A stretch of 24,579 nt of DNA, taken from the IMG/VR virus record IMGVR_UViG_3300042446_001616, positions 1-24,579 of that record. One strand, 5' to 3'. Under the pieces are notes generated by a model. It did not search any database. It was given only the letters and a program-made list of their open reading frames with translations, and was not told where the DNA came from. This DNA comes from a virus. The position numbers were made by a program, and so were the translations under genes. This document shows positions 8,054 to 24,579 of the stretch, one piece after another (within the stretch, counting starts at the first letter, position 1; the number at the start of each line of letters is the position of its first letter).

Positions 8054-8835
8054 AAAATATAACAATTTTAGTTCCAGTACATAAGTTAGACAATGATTAT
8101 GATAAGATGCTAGAAAACGCATTAGATTCTGTCAAAGAATTTCATAACGATGTTAAAGTTAAAATTATTTGTCCTGAAAAATTAAATAAAAAAATTAAAG
8201 AATTCAATTTTGGTCAAAAATTAGAGGTTGAGGTTATTTATAACACATCAAAAGAAACCGATTTTTGTAGTCAAATAAACTTGGGCATCGATGCTTGTGA
8301 TACTGAATGGTTTTCAATTTTAGAAGTTGACGACGAGTATCAAAAACCTTGGTTAAAAAGTATGAATGAATACGTAACCGAATATCCAGATGTTGATGTT
8401 TTTTTAACCATCGTTAAAGACATTGATCCGGAAGGTGAATTTGCTAGTTTCACAAACGAATCTGTCTGGGCTTACGGATTTTCAGATAAGCAAGGCGTTT
8501 TAGATAATGAGGTTTTATTAGAATATCAAAACTATCAAACGAGCGGTGGTTTATATAGAACTAGTGTTATTAAAAATAACGGATCATTTAAAAGTAATAT
8601 TAAACTGACTTTTTCATATGAATTATTGTTACGTTTAACAAATAACGGTGTAAATGTTATGAGTGTTCCTAAAATTGGTTACAGACACGTTAATTTAAGA
8701 GAAGATTCTTTATTTTGGAATTATAAAAATGATGAAAAAGAAAAATTGACGGAAAAAGAAGTTAAATTCTGGTTAGAAACGGCTAAAAAAGAATTTTTTT
8801 ATAAAAATAAGCGCGAAATAAACTATGTAGATTAA
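8050..8835 (+). CDS. GT-A fold glycosyltransferase (GT2-like)
   Basis: A 261-residue family 2-like glycosyltransferase. It starts 'MKNITILVPVHKLDNDYDKM', the usual first strand and helix. The region 'INLGIDACDTEWFSILEVDD' (about residues 77-96) contains the 'D-T-E-W' strand and the DxD-like metal/nucleotide-sugar site at the final Val-Asp-Asp. 'TSGGLYRTSVIKNNGSF' (about 162-178) matches the acceptor-side loop, and 'YRHVNLREDSLFW' near the C-terminus is a plausible late catalytic segment. There is no membrane helix. It overlaps the preceding glycosyltransferase by 4 bp (ATGA). The sugar and acceptor cannot be read from sequence. Confidence 0.85.
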   Translation: MKNITILVPVHKLDNDYDKMLENALDSVKEFHNDVKVKIICPEKLNKKIKEFNFGQKLEVEVIYNTSKETDFCSQINLGIDACDTEWFSILEVDDEYQKPWLKSMNEYVTEYPDVDVFLTIVKDIDPEGEFASFTNESVWAYGFSDKQGVLDNEVLLEYQNYQTSGGLYRTSVIKNNGSFKSNIKLTFSYELLLRLTNNGVNVMSVPKIGYRHVNLREDSLFWNYKNDEKEKLTEKEVKFWLETAKKEFFYKNKREINYVD

Positions 8836-8839
8836 AAAA

Positions 8840-9538
8840 ATGCCTAGAAAACGTACCCAAAAAATTTATTTTGGGGAGGATCAAGAAAAGGCAGTAGTTA
8901 ATTACTTAGAAAGTACTGACGAAGCAGAAAGAAACAAGATATTCAATGAATATTTAAGAGAACCTCTCATCACGATGGTGGAAAGCATCATCAGAAGATA
9001 TAAATTGTATAGAAAAGATTATGAATTCAGTGATTTACATACTGATACAATGTCTTTTTTAATTACAAAAATGAACAAATTTGATCACACCAAAAACCAT
9101 AAAGCGTATTCTTATTTTGGAACTATATGTAAGAACTACCTTATGGGGGCTATTCAAAAGGATACTAAAGACCAAAACAGAAGTGTATCCTATGAGGATA
9201 TTTCTTCCGATATTGAGGAAAGATCTGACTTGGCTTATTATATTGACGAAGACCAAATTGACTACCGAGATATCATTATTAAATTCACAATAGAATTAGA
9301 CAAATTTGTTGAAACTGAAAATCTAACAGACAACGAAAGAAAACTAGGTTACGCTTTGTTAGAAATCTTCAACAATTTTGACAAAATATTCCAAGTTGGG
9401 GAAGGTAATAAATTCAACAAAAACTTAATTTTATTGTCATTACGTGAAATGACATCACTATCTACTAAAGAAATTAGAATATCCCTAAAAAGATACCGAA
9501 CACTTTATGAAGGAATTTTAGGTGGGTTTTTGGATTAA
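8840..9538 (+). CDS. 55: gp55-like late-transcription sigma factor
   Basis: A 232-residue protein resembling T4 gp55, the reduced sigma factor that directs host RNA polymerase to late promoters. Residues about 40-112 look like sigma region 2: an N-terminal helix near 'PLITMVESIIRRYKL', then 'DLHTDTMSFLITKMNKFDHT' and 'NHKAYSYFGTICKNYLMGAI' (87-106), matching the gp55 segment '...[22 protein letters not shown]'. The C-terminal half has no clear region 4. It lies directly upstream of the structural operon, fitting a late role. It may read the TATTTAT(A/T) motifs described here. It could instead be another phage sigma relative. Confidence 0.8.
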   Translation: MPRKRTQKIYFGEDQEKAVVNYLESTDEAERNKIFNEYLREPLITMVESIIRRYKLYRKDYEFSDLHTDTMSFLITKMNKFDHTKNHKAYSYFGTICKNYLMGAIQKDTKDQNRSVSYEDISSDIEERSDLAYYIDEDQIDYRDIIIKFTIELDKFVETENLTDNERKLGYALLEIFNNFDKIFQVGEGNKFNKNLILLSLREMTSLSTKEIRISLKRYRTLYEGILGGFLD

Positions 9539-14956: not shown

Positions 14957-15019
14957 ATGAACCTTAAAGAACTTATTAGAAAATGTATTATTGAAACACA
15001 AGAAGAACGCATCACTGAA
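14957..15019 (+). repeat. Leader module, copy 1
   Basis: The first 21 codons match copy 2 (15391-15453) at 48 of 63 bases by hand count. Downstream of this point the two genes are unrelated, so this is a duplicated or shared leader module. Confidence 0.7.
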
Positions 15020-15370
15020 AGTGGTGAATCAGCGTTACCCCTTTTTGTTCTTAGTGGTGGGGTTAATCAAGATGTAAAAGAAGTTCACATAGCGTCTGAA
15101 GATACTATAAAAGAATTATTTAGTTTTGTGGGTGATGGTGTTAACGAAGTATACTACGAAGATGGTGAACTTATCATTGATTTTTGGGAAGACGCAAGGG
15201 GTAATATTAGCTGGAAAGATTATGCTCGGTTAGAAAAATACATGGAACAAATAAGTAATTACTATATGGATGAAGGAATATCTGAAATTATAACCGGATG
15301 GAATATTAACACAGTTCGTAGACAAATTAATATATCTTTTTCTGAGGATGATTACGATGTATCCTTCTAA
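14957..15370 (+). CDS. Putative head-targeted protein with capsid-targeting-like leader (unknown mature domain)
   Basis: A 137-residue protein. Its first 21 residues, 'MNLKELIRKCIIETQEERIT' plus Glu21, form an amphipathic helix ending in I-T-E|S. This is almost the same as the leader of the next gene (14 of 21 residues identical) and ends like a gp21 protease site. The remaining 116 residues are acidic, with 'VYYEDGELIIDFW' and a C-terminal 'RRQINISFSEDDYDVSF', and are not recognised. T4 internal proteins carry a short N-terminal targeting peptide cut at an I/L-x-E site; by analogy this product may be packaged into the head and trimmed. A weak TATTTA motif (14949-14954) precedes it. Confidence 0.75.
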   Translation: MNLKELIRKCIIETQEERITESGESALPLFVLSGGVNQDVKEVHIASEDTIKELFSFVGDGVNEVYYEDGELIIDFWEDARGNISWKDYARLEKYMEQISNYYMDEGISEIITGWNINTVRRQINISFSEDDYDVSF

Positions 15371-15379
15371 TTAACTAAA

Positions 15380-15387
15380 TATTTATA
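15380..15387 (+). promoter_or_regulatory. TATTTATA motif upstream of the second leader gene
   Basis: An exact octamer in the 20-bp gap, three bases before the ATG, overlapping the palindrome TAAATATTTA. Sense orientation as in the other copies. Confidence 0.35.
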
Positions 15388-15390
15388 AAA

Positions 15391-15453
15391 ATGAACATCA
15401 ACGAACTTATTAAAAAATGTATCAAAGAAGCTCAAGAAGAGCATATTTCAGAA
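15391..15453 (+). repeat. Leader module, copy 2
   Basis: Counterpart of the module at 14957-15019. The conserved residues are M-N-x-x-E-L-I-x-K-C-I-x-E-x-Q-E-E-x-I-x-E. Confidence 0.7.
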
Positions 15454-15849
15454 ACTGGTACATATATGGTATTGAGTAATTTAACTCAAATAAAGAACGA
15501 TATTGAAATAATCTTATCATTTAAACACCACCCCGATTTCCCAAAATTAGTTACGGGAGAACACGCATGGGCCGGTGATCACATCACAACATCGAAAGAT
15601 GATATTGAAGAAGTTGCAAATTTCATAGAAAGTTATATGGAACAAAAAAACCTAACCGAATCAGAAAAAGATTTATCTGAAAATGGTGAAATAGACGAAA
15701 GTAAAAACTGCCCCACCGACCCAGCAAAATGGTCGGCGTCTAAGGCGGCGGCTAAAAGAAAATTTGACGTTTATCCTTCAGCATACGCTAATGGTTGGGC
15801 TGCCAAAAACTATAAAGCAAAAGGTGGTGGTTGGAAAAAATGTAAATAG
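15391..15849 (+). CDS. Putative head-targeted protein with basic 'YPSAYANGWAAK' C-terminal domain
   Basis: A 152-residue protein. Residues 1-21 are the same kind of leader as in the preceding gene, ending I-S-E|T. Residues 22-85 are an unrecognised, mildly acidic domain. Residues 88-103 contain three further potential cleavage sites (L-T-E, L-S-E, I-D-E|S). Residues 104-152 are strongly basic, with 'KWSASKAAAKRKFDVYPSAY' and 'NGWAAKNYKAKGGGWKK'; this small Lys/Ala domain recurs, from memory, in marine phage and giant-virus proteins and looks nucleic-acid binding. If gp21 cuts at the predicted sites, a roughly 49-residue basic peptide would be freed inside the head. The next gene follows directly. 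Confidence 0.75.
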   Translation: MNINELIKKCIKEAQEEHISETGTYMVLSNLTQIKNDIEIILSFKHHPDFPKLVTGEHAWAGDHITTSKDDIEEVANFIESYMEQKNLTESEKDLSENGEIDESKNCPTDPAKWSASKAAAKRKFDVYPSAYANGWAAKNYKAKGGGWKKCK

Positions 15850-16611
15850 ATGAACTTACAAGAGAACATACATAGGATTAGACAAATGATGATTTCTGAG
15901 GAGATGGTACAATCTGATGCTTGGAAATCTATAGAGAAAACATTGGACGTTCTTAAAAAGAAGAAAAAAGTTTTATTATTAAGTTGTTCTAATAGACATA
16001 ATTGGGATAAAAACGATATTGATATACCAAAATCTAAAATGATTGCGATGTATCTTAATGATGAATTGGGTGATAAATCAACATTGATAGACGTTTCAGA
16101 ATTAAACATAGTTCCTTGTGAGGGTAATGTATCAAGAAAAGACGGTAATAGTTGTGGTTTATTAAAATCAAAACTTAAGGATAAAGATAAAAATCCAACC
16201 GGTCACCATAGATGTTGGGCTAGTATAAACAACCCCAAAGATGAACTTTGGAAAATAAGTAAAGAACTATTTGAGTCAGATGCGGTTGTATTTCTAAGTT
16301 CCGTTAGATGGGGACAAACAAATATGTTTTATCAAAATCTAATTGAACGTTTAACTTGGATAGAAAACAGACACACGGCGTTAGGTGAATCCAATTTAGT
16401 TAAAGATATTGAAACTGGATTTATATGTACTGGACAGAATTTTAACGGTGTAAATGTGAATGATTTACAAAAGAAAATCCATGAATTTTATGGTTTTAAA
16501 ATAAATGACGATTTATATTGGAATTGGCAATATACTAAAGATATAAATGACGAATCATTAAAATCATATAAAAATTCACATAAAAAATTTATAAAAGATA
16601 CCAAATTATAA
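15850..16611 (+). CDS. Flavodoxin-fold NAD(P)H/FMN oxidoreductase-like protein with leader
   Basis: A 253-residue protein. Residues 1-17, 'MNLQENIHRIRQMMISE', look like a targeting leader ending I-S-E|E. The body begins with the strand 'KKKKKVLLLSCSNRHNW' (about residues 36-52), in the position of the flavodoxin phosphate-binding loop, continues with 'LIDVSELNIVPCEGN', and has 'LFESDAVVFLSSVRWGQTNM' (about 140-159) followed by 'FYQNLIERLTWIENR'. The last two match the 'a-D-a-i-i-f-x-S-P-x-Y-W-x-x-x-x-x-x-K-x-F-I-D-R' region of NADPH-dependent FMN reductases and WrbA-like proteins. It probably binds FMN; substrate unknown. Its start directly abuts the previous stop. The activity and the leader function are inferred. 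Confidence 0.75.
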   Translation: MNLQENIHRIRQMMISEEMVQSDAWKSIEKTLDVLKKKKKVLLLSCSNRHNWDKNDIDIPKSKMIAMYLNDELGDKSTLIDVSELNIVPCEGNVSRKDGNSCGLLKSKLKDKDKNPTGHHRCWASINNPKDELWKISKELFESDAVVFLSSVRWGQTNMFYQNLIERLTWIENRHTALGESNLVKDIETGFICTGQNFNGVNVNDLQKKIHEFYGFKINDDLYWNWQYTKDINDESLKSYKNSHKKFIKDTKL

Positions 16612-16612
16612 T

Positions 16613-16891
16613 ATGAAAATCGTTATAACCGAAAATCAAAAAAATAAAATTATGAATAGTAGTAATTGGAAGGAAGTAAGTGGTAAACTAGCTAAGACAT
16701 TTTATTTTAAAAATTATAAAGAGGTGATGTCATTTGCGAATGAGGTTATGAAAATTGCTGACAAACAGAATCATCACCCAGATATGACGGTTCATTATGA
16801 TAATGTAAAGTTATCCATCACAGACCACGAAAAGGGTAAGATAACCGATAAGTGCCATAAATTTGTTAATGAGGTAGATAAAATTAAATAA
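16613..16891 (+). CDS. Pterin-4a-carbinolamine dehydratase (PCD/DCoH) with leader
   Basis: A 92-residue protein whose residues about 17-92 match the PCD family, which dehydrates 4a-hydroxytetrahydropterin to quinonoid dihydropterin during recycling after aromatic amino acid hydroxylation. Visible features: 'KLAKTFYFKNYKEVMSFANE' (25-44), the signature 'NHHPDMTVHYDNV' (53-65) with both active-site histidines (54, 55), and the third His in 'ITDH' (His72). The usual T-H-x-x-G-G-(L/I)-T appears as D-H-x-x-G-K-I-T, a slight divergence. The first 15 residues, 'MKIVITENQKNKIMN', are extra and contain I-T-E|N, similar to the internal 'IIQISEEQFKRLF' of the next protein. TAATATG junctions join it to both neighbours. 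Confidence 0.85.
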   Translation: MKIVITENQKNKIMNSSNWKEVSGKLAKTFYFKNYKEVMSFANEVMKIADKQNHHPDMTVHYDNVKLSITDHEKGKITDKCHKFVNEVDKIK

Positions 16892-16892
16892 T

Positions 16893-17762
16893 ATGAAATT
16901 TATAGTATCTAAAGAAGATAAAGAATATATTGAAGAATCTTTAAAATCAGGAGAGGTCTTGCAAGAAGACCTTAGAAGATGGTTTAAAGAAAAGTGGGTA
17001 GACGTTAGTAAAAAGGTAGACGGTAAACACCCGCCTTGTGGTCGAAAAGACGCTGATGGGAAATCCTATCCAAAATGTAGACCTTCTAAAAAAGTGTCTA
17101 AAGAAACCCCAAAAGTTGCTTCATCTTATGATAAAAAAGAAAAAAAAGCAATGACATCACAAAAAAGAAGAGCCGAAAAAGAGGACCCAAAAGTCGGTAA
17201 AGGAAATAAACCAACTATGGTCAAGTTTGATGAACAAAGTAGTGTCGATGAAAGAAGTAGAAGTTTTGCTTTTACAAGAAAAAAAAGATTGTTTAGTCAA
17301 CCAGAAAGAATGTCCAATCCTCTTAGATATAAAGAAATGGATAGATTATCTGAAAGTGTGAAAAAAAGAACAATTATTCAAATATCGGAAGAACAATTTA
17401 AAAGATTATTTGAATATAATGAAGAAACTCCAGTTTTAATATATGAAGATGAAGATGGTTCGGTACAAATGACCAACTATGTTATTGATAATATGTTAAA
17501 TGAAGCCGAATATCAAGGACGTAAAGTTCAGCTAGGTAAGATAATGCAGGGCGATATTAAAAAATTTAAAGTGTACGTTAAGAACGATAAAGGTAAAGTC
17601 GTTAAGGTAAACTTTGGTTTTGGCGGTAAATCCGCTAAAGGAAAAAGAATGGTTATTAAGAAGAATAACCCAGCAAGACGTAAATCATTCAGAGCAAGAC
17701 ACAATTGTGCAAATCCAGGACCGCGTTGGAAACCAAGATATTGGGCTTGTAGAACTTGGTAA
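16893..17762 (+). CDS. Basic multidomain protein with leader-like segments, probable head-packaged DNA-associated protein
   Basis: A 289-residue, very basic protein. Residues 1-25 form a leader-like helix with I-E-E (13-15) and L-Q-E|D (23-25). Residues about 27-110 hold a small domain with 'WVDVSKKVDGKHPPCGRKDA', 'YPKCRPSKK' and 'MTSQKRRAEKEDP', a paired-Cys pattern I recall from marine phage and giant-virus proteins. Residues 160-175, 'TIIQISEEQFKRLFEY', resemble the leader of the upstream PCD gene. L-N-E|A at 202-205 is followed by an 85-residue basic domain ending 'PGPRWKPRYWACRTW', with 'RRKSFRARHNC' inside, which I also recall from uncultured T4-like phages. It probably binds DNA. It ends exactly where the convergent minus-strand gene ends. 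Confidence 0.8.
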   Translation: MKFIVSKEDKEYIEESLKSGEVLQEDLRRWFKEKWVDVSKKVDGKHPPCGRKDADGKSYPKCRPSKKVSKETPKVASSYDKKEKKAMTSQKRRAEKEDPKVGKGNKPTMVKFDEQSSVDERSRSFAFTRKKRLFSQPERMSNPLRYKEMDRLSESVKKRTIIQISEEQFKRLFEYNEETPVLIYEDEDGSVQMTNYVIDNMLNEAEYQGRKVQLGKIMQGDIKKFKVYVKNDKGKVVKVNFGFGGKSAKGKRMVIKKNNPARRKSFRARHNCANPGPRWKPRYWACRTW

Positions 17763-18156: not shown

Positions 18157-19884
18157 CTATCTTAAAGTTCCCATGTCAAATGTTTGGATACCTTTTACAG
18201 AGATTACACCATAGTAACGGTTGTTAACCATTTTCTTTGCGTATCTTGTCATGATACCTTTGATAGGTGTCATGTTGAAAGGATTATACATTGTTGGAGT
18301 TAATTGTAAAGGCACATATGGTGCGTAGATATAACCAGCATCCAATAATGACTTACCTTTGTGACCAATCAAGATTTTGTCAGCAGGGAAGTAAGGGTCA
18401 CGATACACTTGGTAACGGCCAGCTAAAGTACCTACTTTTTCAATACCCATGTTGTATTGGTCTTGCTCTGGATGAGCGTTTGATACGTGGAAATATTCTA
18501 AATCATCGAATACAGCAGAAACTTCTGAAGAAACTACAATCCAGTTTGCACCACCACGTAAAGTTGTTTTATGGATTTGAGCCGATAATTGGTTAATCTT
18601 TGTGATTAACGTTTGGTTCCAATCCTTTTGAGTGTAACCTTGTAAAGTTGCTCCTGATGAACCACCGTACTTCCACTCATTGTAATCCCACTTAAGAGAC
18701 CAAGCAGCACCTTTACGTAAATCACGTAAGATTTCACGGTCAACCTCAGCAGCGATTTGCTCAGATAATAAAGCAGTTAATTCAGCTTCAGCATCGATGT
18801 TGTGGAACGCACTAACGTCTTGAGCTAATTCTGGAGACCAAGTTGCTCTTAATTTTCTTTCAGTTACAGAAACTGTTACAGAAGAAAGATCGAAAGAAAC
18901 CTCACCGATTTCTTCTTCGAATTCTAATGAATCATAAACTCTGAAGTTTAATACGAAAGCAGATGCTAACGCGTCAGAAGCTAAAGTTACAGCGCTGAAA
19001 CCAGCAGTTGCTGAATAAGTTTGTACGTCTACTTTTACATAGATTACACCTTCTTCGTCGCAAATGTCTTGGTATCCACCACTAGGATATCCTGATGTTG
19101 TACTTTTTTGACCGTAAGCAACGATACCTTTACCGTATTGTTGAGTTACAACGTTGAAATTTTTAGATTCACCAGAGAAAGATACTGTAGCTGATGCTAA
19201 GAAATCTTCAGTGTCCATTACAGAACCGTTTGGTCCGATTAATTTACCTTGAGCTGTTTTAGTGAAACCACTAAATTTGATGATTACATCACTCTTAGAA
19301 GTACCAGTCATTGCTGAGTTAGCTACTTCAGTTACTTGTCCAGCAGAGAAAGTTACATAAGATGCACCTGCTAAAGTTACTCCAGAGAATTGACCTTTTG
19401 AATAGTCAAATAAACCGCTAGTAGCTTCATCATTCGCTTCGTAGAAACGATCGTAAAGGTTTGTACCTGTGTAACCTGTGCTTGCGCTAGCTCCACCTGC
19501 ACCACCTGGGATACCGTATGGAGAATAATGTCCGTTTGCTGCGTTTCTTTCTTGTATCTTAGGGATAAAGAAGAATAATTTACCAATTGGTAAGTTCATA
19601 GCTTGAACTGAAACGATGTCATTCGCTAATAATTTAGAGAACACACGACGAATAATAGGGAATACCACTGTCTCGAAAGAACCTGAAGCATCAGAAACTG
19701 CTGCTTCGTTGATTAAATAAGACGCTTGGTTTTCATACAATTGCGCGATGTTATCTTTTTGGTGACCGTCAAGGTTTTCTAAGAAACCTAAGTCATCCCA
19801 TTTTCTAATAGTATCTTCTTTGATAACACGTAAATGTTTTAATCCAATGTTACCAACCATACCTGATTCTAATAATGCTCCCAT
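18157..19884 (-). CDS. 23: Major capsid protein, T4 gp23-like
   Basis: Forms the hexamers of the capsid shell. At 575 residues it is somewhat longer than T4 gp23 (521). The family hallmark appears at residues about 71-106: 'ETVVFPIIRRVFSKLLANDI' then 'VSVQAMNLPIGKLFFF'. Just before it, 'YLINE|AAVSD' gives a gp21-type cleavage site after Glu60, equivalent to the T4 cut after residue 65, so the first 60 residues are a propeptide. The C-terminus has 'MTRYAKKMVNNRYYGVISVK', also gp23-like. Ser/Thr/Gly-rich stretches at about residues 118-310 may hold an inserted domain that accounts for the extra length. It follows gp22 after 32 bp and is ended by a strong terminator. Confidence 0.95.
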   Translation of the reverse strand: MGALLESGMVGNIGLKHLRVIKEDTIRKWDDLGFLENLDGHQKDNIAQLYENQASYLINEAAVSDASGSFETVVFPIIRRVFSKLLANDIVSVQAMNLPIGKLFFFIPKIQERNAANGHYSPYGIPGGAGGASASTGYTGTNLYDRFYEANDEATSGLFDYSKGQFSGVTLAGASYVTFSAGQVTEVANSAMTGTSKSDVIIKFSGFTKTAQGKLIGPNGSVMDTEDFLASATVSFSGESKNFNVVTQQYGKGIVAYGQKSTTSGYPSGGYQDICDEEGVIYVKVDVQTYSATAGFSAVTLASDALASAFVLNFRVYDSLEFEEEIGEVSFDLSSVTVSVTERKLRATWSPELAQDVSAFHNIDAEAELTALLSEQIAAEVDREILRDLRKGAAWSLKWDYNEWKYGGSSGATLQGYTQKDWNQTLITKINQLSAQIHKTTLRGGANWIVVSSEVSAVFDDLEYFHVSNAHPEQDQYNMGIEKVGTLAGRYQVYRDPYFPADKILIGHKGKSLLDAGYIYAPYVPLQLTPTMYNPFNMTPIKGIMTRYAKKMVNNRYYGVISVKGIQTFDMGTLR

Positions 19885-19916
19885 TTTAAAATTTTTGTTT
19901 TTTAATTTTTTATTTA

Positions 19917-21083
19917 TTATTTTAATTTTTTCATCAAATCTTTCATTCTTGCAAATTGAGGTGCTTCGTAAACTTTTGATTCAGAAAGTACTTCAGTTGA
20001 AGATGTTGAAGGTGTTGATGCAATTTTTTCAACAACTGACTCAGTTACAGATTTTTTAGATCCAAGTTCAGTTTTGATTGAATTGTAAAGATTTTTTGAT
20101 TCATTTATAGTAGAAATTGTGTCAAATCTTTTCAAAATATCCAACTTCTCAGTTTTTGTTGTTGAGTGCTCAGTAAACAATCTTGTAGCGTAAGCTAAAT
20201 TTGCATTGAATACAGCAACCTCGTTAAGTTTATCTTTAAATAGTAATAACGCCTTTTTATATTCAGCATTTTGCTTTTTTAACGTTGTAACTTCTTCGTT
20301 TACTGCTTCTCTTTTGTTACCAGCGAAATGTAATTTTTTACTTTTAATTCCACTATGATAACCGTGTCCGATGTTACGAGCAGATTCAGTCGCTTCAACT
20401 TCTTTTGATGTTGACATAACTTCTTCGTCATCGTTTTCACCGTCTAATTCGATTTCATAAACAGTTTCTTCTTCTTCACCTAATTCTTCGTCACCCGCCA
20501 TTGGCGCGTCTTCTTCTTCGTTATAACCTTCAGAAAATTCTTCTTCAGATTCATCTTCTTCGTTTAATTTGATGATATATTCATCTTCACCATCTTCTAA
20601 ACTAATGTTGTCACCATCTTTTTTAACAATAATACCATCTTCGTCAGACATTGCTTTAAACACTTTTAATACTTCTTCATCAGAAGCACCAGTCATGTCT
20701 AACATGTCATTGTCATCAGTTGGCATCTCGTCATCGATTGCTGGTAATTCATCACCAAATCCTTCTTCATCATCAGGATCAGATAAATCTTCACCATCAA
20801 TGTCTTTAGATGGTTCATCGTTTATTGCTGGTAATTCGTCATCTCCCTCACCTTCAGCATCTGCTTCTGGGTCGGTAACATCTTCTTCATCTTCAGGAGC
20901 GTCTTCATCATCTGCTTGTTCAGCAGTTAACTTGATCTCCTCATCTTCCATAGATTCTTTAAGCAAATCGTTTAGTTCTTGTTTCATTGTTGACGCAAGG
21001 ATACCTTTTGCATTTTGCTTTACTGCTTCCTCAAGTGTTTGCACTTGAAGTAACGCTTGTTCTAAAATTGATTTTTCAGTCAT
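19917..21083 (-). CDS. 22: Prohead core scaffold, gp22-like, with very acidic region
   Basis: A 388-residue protein between protease and capsid genes, as in T4. Residues about 46-230 are extremely Asp/Glu-rich, with repeats of the form 'DDELPAI(N/D)DE'. The C-terminal third carries a gp22-like helix, 'LNEVAVFNANLAYATRLFTE' (roughly residues 286-305), preceded by a coiled coil. In T4, gp22 forms the inner scaffold and is then degraded by gp21; here several I/L-x-E sites ('TINESK', 'VLSESK') fit this. T4 gp22 is shorter (about 270 residues), so the acidic block looks like an expansion. It ends 'FARMKDLMKKLK'. A TATTTATA motif lies 20 bases upstream of its ATG. Confidence 0.85.
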   Translation of the reverse strand: MTEKSILEQALLQVQTLEEAVKQNAKGILASTMKQELNDLLKESMEDEEIKLTAEQADDEDAPEDEEDVTDPEADAEGEGDDELPAINDEPSKDIDGEDLSDPDDEEGFGDELPAIDDEMPTDDNDMLDMTGASDEEVLKVFKAMSDEDGIIVKKDGDNISLEDGEDEYIIKLNEEDESEEEFSEGYNEEEDAPMAGDEELGEEEETVYEIELDGENDDEEVMSTSKEVEATESARNIGHGYHSGIKSKKLHFAGNKREAVNEEVTTLKKQNAEYKKALLLFKDKLNEVAVFNANLAYATRLFTEHSTTKTEKLDILKRFDTISTINESKNLYNSIKTELGSKKSVTESVVEKIASTPSTSSTEVLSESKVYEAPQFARMKDLMKKLK

Positions 21084-21098
21084 TTGTAATGATTAATT

Positions 21099-21114
21099 TA
21101 CTATATAAATAGTA
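21099..21114 (-). repeat. Inverted repeat around the motif upstream of gp22
   Basis: TACTAT-TTAT-ATAGTA on the minus strand is a 6-bp inverted repeat that contains the TATTTATA motif. It could be an operator or a small hairpin in the leader. Confidence 0.4.
21104..21111 (-). promoter_or_regulatory. TATTTATA motif upstream of gp22
   Basis: Reads TATTTATA on the minus (sense) strand, 20 bases before the gp22 ATG, in an 81-bp gap. This distance is compatible with a promoter -10 element and a short leader. Confidence 0.45.
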
Positions 21115-21164
21115 GTGTTTTTAAAAAAAGTTAGTTTTTAATCGTATAATCCTAATAAAAATTG

Positions 21165-21848
21165 TTATTTACTTAAAAAACTATTAAGGTTTCCCATTAG
21201 TTTTTTCATTCTATCATCAACAATTGGCTTTTCTTCAACAGATTCTTGATATTTGTCTTTATCAGATAAATCTTGGAAGATGTATGCGCCTGGTGTTGAT
21301 GGTGATGAAACTAAGTCGAAACATACTAATTCAAAGTCATCTTGAACAATGTTTTGACCTCTTTCATTCTTTAATGAACCAACCCCTCTAGATGATATAC
21401 CTAGAGTTGCTCCATTTAATAAAAGCATAGCTGCTTGGTCACCTTTAGTTGACACAATACCCATCTTTTTCCAACCCGGAGATGTGAATAGTTTAATTTT
21501 ACCCATAAGGATTTTACTATCCCACCAAGTTTCTAAAATACTGTGGGATACCCTGTCTAAGTCAATAAGTGATGATGATGGGTGATTTAGTTCGTTTAAT
21601 GCCGAACCGCTATTAATAGCTTGTTGATATTTTTCGTTTTCTCTTTTTAAGAGTGCCTGTGGGTATATTCTACCGTTCTTGTTTGGTGTATCGTATTTTT
21701 GTAAAACGGCATAGAGAATAAAGTCCTGATTGGTATCTTTATTCTCCATTTCTTTTAACACTGCTCTGTTTTCACTAGGAGAAATGTGTCCAGCGTCGTA
21801 TTCTATTAAAATTCCCTTACCTATTTCGTTTGGACCTAATATCTTCAT
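21165..21848 (-). CDS. 21: Prohead core protease, T4 gp21-like
   Basis: A 227-residue serine protease of the T4 gp21 (MEROPS S80) type, which matures the prohead by cutting scaffold and shell proteins after I/L-x-E. Visible features in order: 'KYDTPNKNGRIYP' (51-63), the catalytic His in 'ELNHPSSS' (His89), 'WWDSKILMGKIKLFTSPGWK' (108-127), the catalytic Ser in 'GISSRGVGS' (Ser152 or 153), and 'FDLVSSPSTPGA' (177-188). Length is close to that of T4 gp21 (212 residues). It ends 'DDRMKKLMGNLNSFLSK', probably a scaffold-contact tail. The predicted cut sites in gp23 and in the plus-strand leader genes fit its specificity. Confidence 0.93.
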   Translation of the reverse strand: MKILGPNEIGKGILIEYDAGHISPSENRAVLKEMENKDTNQDFILYAVLQKYDTPNKNGRIYPQALLKRENEKYQQAINSGSALNELNHPSSSLIDLDRVSHSILETWWDSKILMGKIKLFTSPGWKKMGIVSTKGDQAAMLLLNGATLGISSRGVGSLKNERGQNIVQDDFELVCFDLVSSPSTPGAYIFQDLSDKDKYQESVEEKPIVDDRMKKLMGNLNSFLSK

Positions 21849-21872
21849 TTATAGATTTTTTATTCTATAAAT
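21847..21872 (-). repeat. Inverted repeat covering the gp21 start region
   Basis: ATTTATAGA and TCTATAAAT are 9-bp arms separated by an 8-base loop. On the minus strand the distal arm holds the TATTTATA motif, and the arm next to the gene includes the first two bases of the gp21 ATG. It could fold in mRNA and affect translation, if the transcript includes it. Confidence 0.5.
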
Positions 21873-21873
21873 A
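21866..21873 (-). promoter_or_regulatory. TATTTATA motif upstream of gp21
   Basis: Reads TATTTATA on the minus strand, 17 bases before the gp21 ATG in a 39-bp gap. Same orientation and similar spacing as the gp22 copy. Confidence 0.45.
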
Positions 21874-21887
21874 TCACATAATTAAGT

Positions 21888-22316
21888 TCAAAACTTGGTT
21901 TTACTAAAATTAAATAAGGTTTTATCGATTAAACAATTGTCAACTAGTTTTTTTACTAGATTTTCGAGCATAAAAGTAACCTCTTTGTTCTTTATGTCAA
22001 ATTGTTTTTCAGCGTATAATGTGATTTCAAGGTTCATGAATGATTTCTTATCCAATTTAATTCCCTTGGTTCTAATGTCTAAATCTACAATACTTTCTGT
22101 CTTAAAAAAGTTATTTAAATTAAATTCTCTAATTGTATCTTTAATTTTCTTTCTACTTCTTAATATAGTTCTATCGAAATCGTCAGATTCATTTGTTGGT
22201 TTAACCCAAGCGTTTAATTTTATGTATACTGTTTTTAATGTTCTAAAGTCAACAGTTCCGTAGCCAATTTTAATTTTTTCATATTCGCCTAACTGAATAT
22301 ACTTACCAAATTTCAT
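21888..22316 (-). CDS. Unknown 142-aa protein between gp21 and the bS21 gene
   Basis: A 142-residue basic protein in the head module. It begins 'MKFGKYIQLGEYEKIKIGYG', then 'LKTVYIKLNAWVKPT', a helical Arg/Lys stretch 'TILRSRKKIKDTIREF', a strand-rich 'MNLEITLYAEKQFD' and a C-terminal helix. The alternation suggests an alpha/beta fold, but the family is not recognised. Its place next to gp21 suggests a head-assembly or head-completion role, which is inference only. It starts at the edge of the 104-bp divergent region, so that region may hold its promoter. Confidence 0.7.
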   Translation of the reverse strand: MKFGKYIQLGEYEKIKIGYGTVDFRTLKTVYIKLNAWVKPTNESDDFDRTILRSRKKIKDTIREFNLNNFFKTESIVDLDIRTKGIKLDKKSFMNLEITLYAEKQFDIKNKEVTFMLENLVKKLVDNCLIDKTLFNFSKTKF

Positions 22317-22353
22317 TTATCTTTTCATGTTATTGTCATTTTATGGTGTTAGT

Positions 22354-22371
22354 AACTAATTTAACTAATTT
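22354..22371. repeat. Tandem 9-bp direct repeat in the divergent regulatory region
   Basis: AACTAATTT occurs twice head-to-tail, directly upstream of the -33 element of the bS21 promoter. It could be a regulator binding site or an upstream element. Confidence 0.5.
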
Positions 22372-22391
22372 TTTTTGAAATTCCAAAAAAA
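22370..22391. repeat. 8-bp inverted repeat between the -33 and -7 elements
   Basis: TTTTTTTG and CAAAAAAA flank a 6-base centre (AAATTC). The left arm includes the -33 TTTG, so a protein bound here would cover the promoter. It could also be a coincidence of A/T tracts. Confidence 0.4.
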
Positions 22392-22402
22392 CGGTAATTT
22401 TG
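22374..22402 (+). promoter_or_regulatory. Bacteroidota-type promoter of the bS21 gene
   Basis: TTTG at 22374-22377 and TAATTTTG at 22395-22402, separated by 17 bp, match the Flavobacterium/Bacteroides primary sigma consensus (TTG...TAnnTTTG). Transcription would start about 7 bases later, leaving a leader of about 12 bases before the bS21 ATG. This suggests expression by unmodified host polymerase, early or throughout infection. Confidence 0.65.
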
Positions 22403-22407
22403 TGATA

Positions 22408-22419
22408 TATTTATTTATA
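22408..22419 (+). promoter_or_regulatory. Overlapping TATTTATT and TATTTATA motifs before bS21
   Basis: TATTTATT (22408-22415) and TATTTATA (22412-22419) overlap, ending one base before the bS21 ATG. On the opposite strand the second one reads TATAAATA, the classical T4 late promoter sequence, facing the 142-aa gene about 95 bp away. Confidence 0.35.
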
Positions 22420-22420
22420 T

Positions 22421-22612
22421 ATGATTATAATTGATTTAAGTAAGGAAAGAAATCTCGAATCTGCTCTTAGAACGTATAAAAGTAAGGTTCAAAAGACCAA
22501 GCAAATACAAAAATTAAGAGAAAGACAAGAATTTGTTAAACCTTCAGTAAGTAGAAGGAAGGAAGTATTGAAAGCGATATACCTTCAACAGAAAAAAAAT
22601 GGTCTAGATTAA
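22421..22612 (+). CDS. rpsU: Phage-encoded ribosomal protein bS21
   Basis: A 63-residue bS21 homologue, a small-subunit ribosomal protein near the 3' end of 16S rRNA. It shows 'ALRTYKSKVQKTKQIQKLRE' (15-34), then 'RQEFVKPSVSRRKEVLKAIY' (35-54), then 'LQQKK'. The KPSV-x-RR-x-E-x-x-KA-x-Y-x-Q pattern is that of Bacteroidota bS21 rather than the proteobacterial type. Tyr54 is present; as I recall, the same residue helps hide the anti-Shine-Dalgarno sequence in Flavobacterium johnsoniae ribosomes. The gene lies on the opposite strand to the surrounding head genes, with its own host-type promoter and a shared terminator. No Shine-Dalgarno sequence precedes it. bS21 is among the commonest ribosomal proteins found in phages. 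Confidence 0.88.
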   Translation: MIIIDLSKERNLESALRTYKSKVQKTKQIQKLRERQEFVKPSVSRRKEVLKAIYLQQKKNGLD

Positions 22613-22625
22613 TCCAGACCATTTT
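22596..22625. terminator. Bidirectional terminator shared by bS21 and the 248-aa gene
   Basis: A perfect 10-bp stem AAAATGGTCT/AGACCATTTT with a 10-base loop (AGATTAATCC). It is flanked by an A-tract on one side and T-rich sequence on the other, so U-runs follow the hairpin on both strands. Both genes stop inside the loop: the stop codons overlap as TTAA at 22609-22612. Stem GC content is modest, so strength is uncertain. Confidence 0.7.
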
Positions 22626-23355
22626 CTAATTGTTTTAAACGATAGTAGTTAAATTTCGTCGGGACCATTTCGTCCATTTCTTTTTTAACATCCGTTAATT
22701 TTGTTGCAAATGTTGCGTCGTTAGATTTTGCTTCACTTAAGAGGGTATCTACTTTAGTGGTTAAACTTTCTTTTAATTCGTTAACCTTTGTTTTTAAATC
22801 TTCATCAGAAAGTGATATAATTGTTTTTAAGGTTTCTTTTTGCTCTTCATTTAATGTGTTATTATAAAGAACGTTAAAATTGTTTGCCAAAACAGCATGT
22901 AATAAATTTTCATTTACTGTGTAAGTTTCGGTTGTTTTCTCAATATTTTCTTTTTTTGTTGTTAAATGTTCTACCAACTTCTTTTTAGCCATAACTTTCT
23001 TATCAATATTATTTAAGTTATCATCTTCTAATAACTGATCAATTGAATCGTAAAGTTTGTTTTCATCTATTTGCGTGTCATGAACCGACATGTTGATAAC
23101 TTGACAAAAGCTATTAATTTTCGTTGCCTTTTCCTTTAATAATTGACCAAGTTGTTCAACATAAAGTTTAGCGGTTTCTTTATCCTCAAAATACTTGTTC
23201 TCTATTTCTTCATAAAATAGATACATTTCTTTGAAATCTCTATTCTTCTTAATCACCTTAAACAAGTTTTTTGTATTTTGTTTAAAAGTTTTATCTGTGT
23301 ACGCCTCAGTTAATTTTTTCAATAACTTCGACTTTATTTTTCCAAAGTTGTTCAT
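22609..23355 (-). CDS. Unknown helical protein between portal and protease genes
   Basis: A 248-residue, Lys/Glu-rich protein, almost wholly helical or coiled-coil in appearance, with segments such as 'KIKSKLLKKLTEAYTDKTFK' at the start and 'LKTKVNELKESLTTKVDTLL' near residue 200. No membrane segment or known motif is seen. It starts two bases after the portal stop. In T4 the small prohead core proteins gp67 and gp68 lie between gp20 and gp21, so an internal core or scaffold role is a reasonable guess from position and composition. It contains several L/I-x-E sites, as expected by chance in a Glu-rich protein. It ends in Asn-Gly-Leu-Asp within a terminator loop. Confidence 0.75.
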   Translation of the reverse strand: MNNFGKIKSKLLKKLTEAYTDKTFKQNTKNLFKVIKKNRDFKEMYLFYEEIENKYFEDKETAKLYVEQLGQLLKEKATKINSFCQVINMSVHDTQIDENKLYDSIDQLLEDDNLNNIDKKVMAKKKLVEHLTTKKENIEKTTETYTVNENLLHAVLANNFNVLYNNTLNEEQKETLKTIISLSDEDLKTKVNELKESLTTKVDTLLSEAKSNDATFATKLTDVKKEMDEMVPTKFNYYRLKQLENGLD

Positions 23356-23357
23356 TT

Positions 23358-24579
23358 TTAATCGTTTAAAATATCTTTTAATTTATTCTCCATTTCATAA
23401 ATATTCCTTTGTGCCTTTTCCATATTAAATAAATCTTCTAATTTATCTCCACCGCCTAAAGATGAGATAAGTTTAGCTTTTTTACCTTCACTTAAAGGTT
23501 CCTCACCACCACCTGATGGCGGTCCTGATGGTGCAGGTGGTGCACCCATTGCTCCGCCCAATTCAGGCGCTTCACCACCACCTTCAGCGGCGGTAGCCGC
23601 CTCTGCTGCTTGCCTTTCATCTTCTGAGATACCGTACTTAGCATCAACCTCATCAAATATTCCAGAACGTTTAATTACGGTCTGTGTGTTTGTTAATTCA
23701 AAGCCCATCGCTCTTTCAAGACGTTGTTGTTGTAAATCAAGAAGAACTTCATTGTCACTAAATCCAAGAATATTTTTCTTAGCCCATGTATGTGAAACTG
23801 GTAAAATACCAACTTGAGATTGATCAGATGTCGCATCTTTGTAAAGTGTGACTTTTTCTTTCCATTGTTCAATACGTAATAAATCTGATTGTGCAGATGG
23901 ATTTGATAAACCTAATGTAAAGTTATTTAATTCATCTTCTAAACCTAACATGTATAGATGAATTAACGCAACCTTGTTTAATTCTTGAATTAATGATTTT
24001 TGAATTCTATTAATAGTTCTTGCAAAACGAATATCCATTAATGCAAGATTCTTACCATCACCAACAACTTCTTCAAAACCTAAAAACGCTTTAGGTATTC
24101 TAAGAGCCGCTAATAATTTCTTTTGAATATATTCAATATCCGCTATCTCACCTAAATTCTGTGCTCCAGGTAGTGTATCAATTGGGTTTGGTGCTGCTGG
24201 GTCACGTACTGGTATGAAATAATCTTGGTCAACAGCCATTTGATTATATCTCATATCCACTTGACCGTTTCTAGCATCTACTGATTGGTCTCTCTTGAAT
24301 TTATTAGCAACACGTTGTACATATGGTTCAATATCTTTGTCGTCCATATTACCAACGAACACCTTGAATACCCTTCTTTCAGGGGCTCTAGATGTTCTAT
24401 AAATTAACATAGCATCTTCCGCAAGTAATAATTGTTTCCAGATTCTTCTAATTTTATCCAACATAGATGTCCCATAAGGTAGTTTTCTATCATCACCTAA
24501 AATTCTAAAGTGAGCAATTTCCCATGCTTGGAATTCCATGTCACGATTTTTCCATCTAAACATTAATTCTTTAGTCGGT
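23358..24579 (-). CDS. 20: Portal vertex protein, T4 gp20-like (5' end cut by the window)
   Basis: Forms the dodecameric ring at the head vertex through which DNA is packaged. The frame is open to the window edge: the Met at 24563 is internal, preceded by codons for P-T-K-E-L. About 406 residues are visible, against 524 in T4. Typical gp20 segments are 'AMLIYRTSRAPERRVFKVFV' with 'GNMDD', then 'QDYFIPVRD', 'IDTLPGAQNLGEIADIEYIQ' and 'LLAALRIPKAFLGFE'. The C-terminus has a Gly/Pro/Ala-rich linker ('GGAMGAPPAPSGPPSGGGEE') and a short helical tail, which looks longer than in T4. It is the first gene of the visible head module. Confidence 0.95.
   Translation of the reverse strand, partial: PTKELMFRWKNRDMEFQAWEIAHFRILGDDRKLPYGTSMLDKIRRIWKQLLLAEDAMLIYRTSRAPERRVFKVFVGNMDDKDIEPYVQRVANKFKRDQSVDARNGQVDMRYNQMAVDQDYFIPVRDPAAPNPIDTLPGAQNLGEIADIEYIQKKLLAALRIPKAFLGFEEVVGDGKNLALMDIRFARTINRIQKSLIQELNKVALIHLYMLGLEDELNNFTLGLSNPSAQSDLLRIEQWKEKVTLYKDATSDQSQVGILPVSHTWAKKNILGFSDNEVLLDLQQQRLERAMGFELTNTQTVIKRSGIFDEVDAKYGISEDERQAAEAATAAEGGGEAPELGGAMGAPPAPSGPPSGGGEEPLSEGKKAKLISSLGGGDKLEDLFNMEKAQRNIYEMENKLKDILND

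Follow-up and report, generated by a model that had tools for sequence, protein, structure and literature searches.

In bacteriophage T4 a leader of ten residues suffices to carry foreign proteins into the head and is cut at I/L-x-E (PMC9026906), and the T4 internal proteins act on first-line defences (PMC9391042). In phage P1 an N-terminal signal of fewer than 30 residues in DarB carries this anti-restriction protein, and also a reporter, into the head (PMC9024508), while a gp21-like protease, cutting after x-x-E, removes N-terminal propeptides from the ejected head proteins of SPN3US and phiKZ (PMC5694885). Here we analyse a contig of 24.6 kb, taken in full from IMG/VR (G000, hereafter the window), of a T4-like phage encoding bS21, gp20, gp21, gp22 and gp23. 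A preliminary description made from the letters alone had proposed that five consecutive genes of this window (14957-17762) form a cassette whose products start with capsid-targeting leaders. Sequence comparison strongly supports gp21-type capsid-targeting leaders on unrelated proteins for three of them, genes 1-3, because relatives show leaders shared between unrelated proteins, leaders exchanged ahead of a [ILVMF]-x-E junction, and one leader type that is identical to the C-terminal motif of the scaffold protein gp22. We further consider it likely that these leaders act as capsid-targeting tags, that one type (type B) imitates the gp22 tail, that gp21 cuts them, and that the diverse cargo stays in the head for delivery into the host.

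The likeness to the T4 proteins IPI-III and Alt consists in a short N-terminal propeptide ending in I/L-x-E, in mature parts unrelated to each other and in a gp21-type protease in the same phage. As propeptide, site, unrelated bodies and, within the window, a protease of the gp21 (S77) family are all present, the system probably works like that of T4. The present leaders are, however, not recognisably T4-like, and T4 shows no leader sharing in the 35-residue comparison described below. The T4 internal-protein leader, MKTYQEFIAE, is unlike the C-terminus of T4 gp22, whereas in the present phages one of the leader types is a copy of the gp22 tail; moreover, several leader types are interchangeable here, and about 20 leader genes occur in one genome. 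The N-terminus of T4 gp22, MLKEQLIAE↓A (L100, gene 22, 8118-8927; arrows mark the known or predicted cut), resembles MKTYQEFIAE↓A, and the T4 tag may imitate this other, N-terminal end of its own scaffold.

The herpesvirus scaffold has a short C-terminal tail that binds the capsid protein and is removed by the maturation protease, and in phage P22 proteins fused to the binding part of the scaffold become cargo. A cleavable scaffold tail and cargo bearing a scaffold part would be common ground, but here natural, unrelated proteins seem to have gained the tail motif as an N-terminal tag. P1 DarB likewise has an N-terminal capsid-targeting signal, but P1 is without an identified separate scaffold and the Dar N-termini are without consensus (PMC9024508); the SPN3US propeptides differ in being mostly longer than 100 residues and cut at A-x-E, and a gp22 counterpart is not confirmed there (PMC5694885). 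The use of the scaffold's own tail motif as a tag, the lineage-wise co-change of the two, the exchangeable leader classes and the many leader genes appear new. In a limited check, the leader motif strings were in no paper of the literature searched, where virion proteomics for these phages was not found either.

The cassette comprises the following genes.

14957..15370, plus strand: gene 1 (137 aa), with the leader MNLKELIRKCIIETQEERITE↓S at residues 1-21 (nt 14957-15019)
15391..15849, plus strand: gene 2 (152 aa), with the leader MNINELIKKCIKEAQEEHISE↓T at residues 1-21 (nt 15391-15453)
15850..16611, plus strand: gene 3 (253 aa), with the leader MNLQENIHRIRQMMISE↓E at residues 1-17 (nt 15850-15900) and a flavodoxin-like flavin mononucleotide (FMN)/quinone reductase body
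16613..16891, plus strand: gene 4, 92 aa, pterin-4a-carbinolamine dehydratase (PF01329, Pterin_4a, E=2.6e-18)
16893..17762, plus strand: gene 5, 289 aa, part of DUF5872 (PF19197, residues 7-96, E=8.6e-13) and a basic C-terminal module (phrog_7595, residues 204-289)

The motifs from which the preliminary description started are where it placed them (ITE 21, ISE 21, ISE 17, ITE 7, IEE 15 and LQE 25). The leaders of genes 1 and 2 do share 14 of 21 residues (BLASTP 15/23, E=2e-8, with the alignment limited to residues 1-23), and comparison shows no similarity among the five bodies. Its caution about chance matches was also justified: I/L-x-E lies within the first 25 residues in 35% of the genes of G001, a 287-kb contig of a relative found among 80 loci related by gp21, and in 47% of the open reading frames of the window, so that its presence in five of five genes says little by itself. 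The claim of five leader genes had to be narrowed. Genes 1-3 carry exchangeable leaders ending in [I/L]-x-E and gene 4 is a possible case, but gene 5 is not supported, as both of its quoted sites fall within the DUF5872 match and its supposed leader lies inside a domain. The leaders of genes 1 and 2 lie outside any matched domain, with no significant domain match over them, and in the AlphaFold model of gene 3 the mean predicted local distance difference test score (pLDDT) is 51-56 for residues 1-20 versus 84-96 for the next helix.

Leaders in this phage and its relatives fall into class A (MKIIITESQLxxLI), class B (MNLQENIQRIKEMMGLISE), class C (MKKVVRLTESELIDLIKNVISE) and class C1 (MKNLNQIIRKHLRVISE), genes 1 and 2 of the window belonging to C1. 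Gene 1 matches nothing in Pfam and nothing at a significant level in PHROGs, and shares its leader only with gene 2. A hidden Markov model (HMM) of the leaders of gene-2 homologues ranks it second in the window after gene 2 (5.9 bits, E 0.026), followed by an internal stretch with the nearly equal score of 5.8 bits. The body of gene 2 consists of YMVLSN..HAWAGDHI and the N-terminal third of DUF5872. Gene 3 has a type B leader (IxRI[KR]xMM), of which homologues keep MMxxE; its fold matches FMN/quinone reductases, and the G001 homologue matches FMN_red (E=8.5e-4).

Leader sharing was assessed by comparing 35-residue stretches among all proteins of one genome with non-homologous bodies, two internal stretches and the C-terminus serving as controls. 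G001 gave 20 N-terminal pairs versus 0, 1 and 0 in the controls (a few of its pairs are tail-fibre-like starts), LR756508, half of a 484-kb phage, gave 13 versus 0, 0 and 0, and vB_FspM_immuto, an isolated phage of Flavobacterium sp. LMO8 (hereafter immuto), gave 6 versus 0, 0 and 0, two of the six being non-leader pairs (one signal-peptide-like, one of tail fibres). The same comparison gave 2, 0 and 0 N-terminal pairs and no leaders in T4, RM378 and P-SSM4, and no such leaders in HTVC008M and Mel-JY01; the system is therefore not general among T4-like phages. In G001 the leader genes are clustered, 18 of 20 within one 31-kb cassette, on bodies that include a tyrosine-phosphatase-like protein, an HD hydrolase, a CCA-adding enzyme, an FMN reductase, a pterin dehydratase and a Tae4-like amidase. 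The content of leader-bearing proteins varies strongly among relatives. An HMM seeded with both window leaders found, past near-identical copies, weak matches only, and leader queries against isolated phages matched immuto and LR756508 alone. LR756508 has a leader class of its own, MKLTERKLRRIVKEEIxRVLxE, on about ten proteins at 141-218 kb (loci L149-L152), which is unlike the C-terminus of its own gp22 (RMQKLADIS).

The preliminary description had proposed looking in related phages for the leader attached to other domains, and there leaders are found on other, unrelated bodies and are also exchanged on one body. Homologues of gene 2 gathered from IMG/VR (55 unique) bear, ahead of one and the same type of body, a class A, B, C or C1 leader. 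A [ILVMF]-x-E lies within 14 residues ahead of the body in 54 of the 55, versus 28% in random stretches of equal length; given the relatedness of the homologues, the figure shows constraint and not 55 events.

The comparison with gp22 involves the head-gene block of the window (18157-24563, minus strand: portal-like protein, gp21 protease, gp22-like scaffold and gp23), which holds the following features.

18157..19884, minus strand: gp23 major capsid protein (PF07068, E=5e-74), whose propeptide ends at residue 60 in LINE↓A
19917..21083, minus strand: gp22-like prohead scaffold, between gp21 and gp23, C-terminus LSE↓SKVYEAPQFARMKDLMKKLK
21165..21848, minus strand: gp21-like prohead protease, Peptidase S77 (PF03420, E=1.1e-19; phrog_207, E=1.7e-40)
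22421..22612, plus strand: bS21 ribosomal protein gene, a clade marker without leader (PF01165, E=1.4e-11)
22609..23355, minus strand: core-like protein situated where T4 has gp67/68, between portal and protease, N-terminus MNNFGKIKSKLLKKLTE↓A

The gp23 site was correctly placed in the preliminary description, and in relatives this junction reads IxE↓A or VxE throughout. The part of the window gp22 past the LSE site occupies nt 19920-19979; across relatives this C-terminus is kept and the remainder of gp22 diverges.

Leader type B has the C-terminal motif of gp22 in two lineages. In immuto gp22 ends in SEQVSRWQKLAGIIK, where ISE precedes VSEQVSRWQKLAGIIK, and two leaders of the same phage read SEQFRRMQKLAGIITE↓S and SEQFKRMQFLAGIITE↓S; KNV73_gp083 (record 111675) has the leader MKKQILSEQFRRMQKLAGIITE↓S. 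An HMM of the gp22 C-terminus of this lineage retrieves from immuto gp22 (E 6e-9), two leaders (4e-8 and 8e-6) and nothing further. In the sister phages of the window clade gp22 ends in ..YENPQIRRIKEMMGIVK, with a core identical to leader type B2, and the only matches that a profile of the sister-clade gp22 C-terminus gives above noise in G001 are gp22 and four leaders. IMG/VR was then scanned for F.RMQKLAG and for I.RIK.MMG, patterns from which the protease site is absent; all counts from these scans refer to the matches listed, which are a sample. F.RMQKLAG gave at least 173 unique copies, made up of 111 leaders, 49 extreme C-termini and 13 others; almost all of the C-termini are gp22-like, and in most of them [IV]xE stands a few residues ahead of the motif, while 110 of the 111 leaders have [ILVMF]xE at most nine residues after it. 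I.RIK.MMG, the motif of the window clade, gave at least 86 copies (75 leaders, 4 C-termini, 7 others), with all four C-termini belonging to sister-phage gp22 and a protease site following in 71 of the 75 leaders. The background for such a site is 13-19% per stretch of this length, and the expected shares are about 20% for N-terminal and 6% for C-terminal positions. Position P3 is I or L in 171 of 181 leaders. Leader contigs of either motif in which gp23 was found, with gp22 upstream, are T4-type.

From one lineage to the other the tag follows the scaffold tail. The 17 gp22s taken from contigs with F.RMQKLAG leaders all carry an ending of the matching family, mostly R[MWF]Q[KR][LI]AGI, and neither motif occurs in genomes of the other lineage (0/15 and 0/18); since the contigs were picked by their leader, the informative part of these counts is the absence of the other motif only. 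The 160 tagged proteins among the matches listed group by body into 91 clusters, most without assigned function in Pfam and PHROGs, and one body was seen with the proper tag of each lineage. When one protein per cluster is aligned, R and G of the leader are invariant, both being in the search pattern, and E, which lies outside it, is conserved at 90% or more. Tagged bodies also include a peptidoglycan-binding protein, an HD hydrolase, kinase-like proteins and an Acb1-like 2H phosphoesterase of the anti-CBASS (cyclic-oligonucleotide-based antiphage signalling system) family (PF23474, E=9e-7). The Acb1-like protein bears the scaffold-type tag (L345:4266-4826) and a Tae4-like amidase a class A leader (L092:1916-2854). 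One contig, G058 (268,739 bases; L543, L548), has two gp22/gp23 pairs, one window-like and one immuto-like, with the leader motif of the window type only; it may be an assembly chimera.

The presence of the gp22 C-terminal motif in type B leaders suggests a shared partner in the prohead, to which both are predicted to bind. During prohead assembly a tagged protein would enter the core, the type B tag mimicking the C-terminal tail of gp22 and probably taking the partner bound by that tail, which might be gp23, on its inner face, or else the scaffold or core. In both gp22 and cargo gp21 would cut after [I/L]-x-E, with opposite results: gp22 has the order body, [ILV]xE, motif and carboxyl end, and the cut would drop the tail and let the scaffold leave; the cargo has the order amino end, motif, [IL]xE and body, and the cut would drop the tag and let the cargo stay free with the DNA. 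The freed cargo would probably enter the host upon infection, as we infer from the T4 internal proteins. Types A, C and C1 are taken to have the same role, possibly via other contacts, because they replace type B on one body.

Extended to other genomes, it seems somewhat probable that T4-like phages of the Bacteroidota type, some of them jumbo phages of about 290 kb, have a modular head cargo in which dozens of unrelated effectors, counter-defence and cell-wall enzymes among them, have each received the capsid- or core-binding C-terminal motif of the scaffold as a cleavable tag at the N-terminus, that tag and scaffold tail co-change between lineages, and that the tag allows the injected proteome of uncultured phages to be read from sequence alone. 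Head-carried proteins decide the first minutes of an infection; for uncultured phages, a sequence-recognisable tag matching the scaffold tail would, if the proposal is true, let the injected proteins be listed directly. The tagged Acb1-like homologue implies that first-line counter-defence may be part of the cargo, and the tag hints at a route for loading proteins into these capsids.

Several points weigh against the leaders being capsid-targeting tags that imitate gp22. The binding partner, packaging, cleavage and ejection are inferred, and with them virion presence. The weakest link is that the window is connected to gp22 through its sister phages: the gp22 tail of the window has drifted (FARMKDLMKKLK), gp22 of the window clade ends in RMKDLM, the leaders read RIKEMM or RIRQMM, and an HMM of the clade's own gp22 C-terminus did not recover the leaders from G001. 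Types A, C and C1 are unlike the gp22 C-terminus, a CCA-adding enzyme and a pterin dehydratase are odd bodies for cargo, a few of the listed motif copies are internal, and relatedness among the sequences keeps the counts from being independent.

Tagged proteins might instead be accessories of the prohead core or scaffold, incorporated and cleaved for assembly and not bound for the host, which we regard as rather unlikely. The N-terminus of the core-like gene beside gp21 is similar and closes with LTE↓S/A, and T4 IPIII influences head assembly (PMC9026906). In the core-like protein [ILVMF]xE[SAG] is kept at the N-terminal site in 25 of 26 homologues; its link to the leaders is the LTE↓S/A pattern only, because the type C1 HMM has no clear match there. 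The 91 unrelated body clusters listed, the enzymes among them and the variable content look, by contrast, like effectors rather than assembly parts. It is distinctly improbable that the N-termini serve docking or localisation and have nothing to do with the head (an intracellular phage compartment would be one such destination), the I/L-x-E being fortuitous: types A and C are without a known binding partner, as this would have it, but the type B motif is also the gp22 C-terminus, with a protease site adjoining in both places, and in the leaders listed for the two motifs the frequency of that site (110/111 and 71/75) far exceeds the 13-19% background.

Chance, that is, an ordinary run of small genes with short helical starts and a common I/L-x-E, is very improbable as an explanation of the whole. 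Given matches in 35-47% of genes, it holds for gene 5 and perhaps for gene 4; the control stretches, however, show no such sharing between unrelated bodies, and the junction is present in 54 of 55 gene-2 homologues. Chance is refuted for genes 2 and 3, and for gene 1 the matter depends on the identity of its leader with that of gene 2. An RNA-level element, a 5' coding sequence conserved for translation control and so yielding alike N-termini, would explain why the likeness is located at gene starts, but it can be dismissed with near certainty, as the same peptide lies at the gp22 C-terminus, the 3' end of a gene, and 60 copies of RMQKLAGIITE have 52 different DNA sequences, a free variation of synonymous codons which means that selection acts on the peptide.

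Apart from the proposed capsid-targeting leaders of genes 1-3, gene 4 possibly has a type A leader, MKIVITE↓N (residues 1-7): its Pterin_4a domain begins at residue 8, right behind ITE, and the type A start MKIIITES(Q) is found again on other G001 proteins. An internal stretch of gene 5, RTIIQISEEQFKRLF, resembles type A. Genes 2 and 5 form a constant pair at this locus in relatives, with genes 1, 3 and 4 as extras; homologues of genes 3 and 4 are located elsewhere, in the G001 cassette. DUF5872 (PF19197) is divided between the members of the pair, the end of gene 2 covering profile positions 1-39 and the start of gene 5 covering 40-114, and in the window phage two unrelated genes separate the halves (15391-15849; 16893-17762).

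The gene context of bS21 agrees with that of Bacteroidetes bS21 phages from freshwater lakes (PMC9723584), and the leader-bearing large T4-like phages are probably phages of Bacteroidota. The bS21 gene runs opposite to the strand of the head block, inside the block; as it is without a leader, the present system lends no support to the published idea of bS21 packaging. A short module, ERSRSFAFTRKKRLF, is common to the DUF5872 protein of the window (16893-17762) and the C-terminus of the G001 pterin dehydratase (129682-130092). The basic C-terminal module of gene 5 (residues 204-289, ..RRKSFRARHNCANPGPRWKPRYWACRTW, phrog_7595) occurs also in Pelagibacter, Roseobacter and Methylophilales phages and in immuto.

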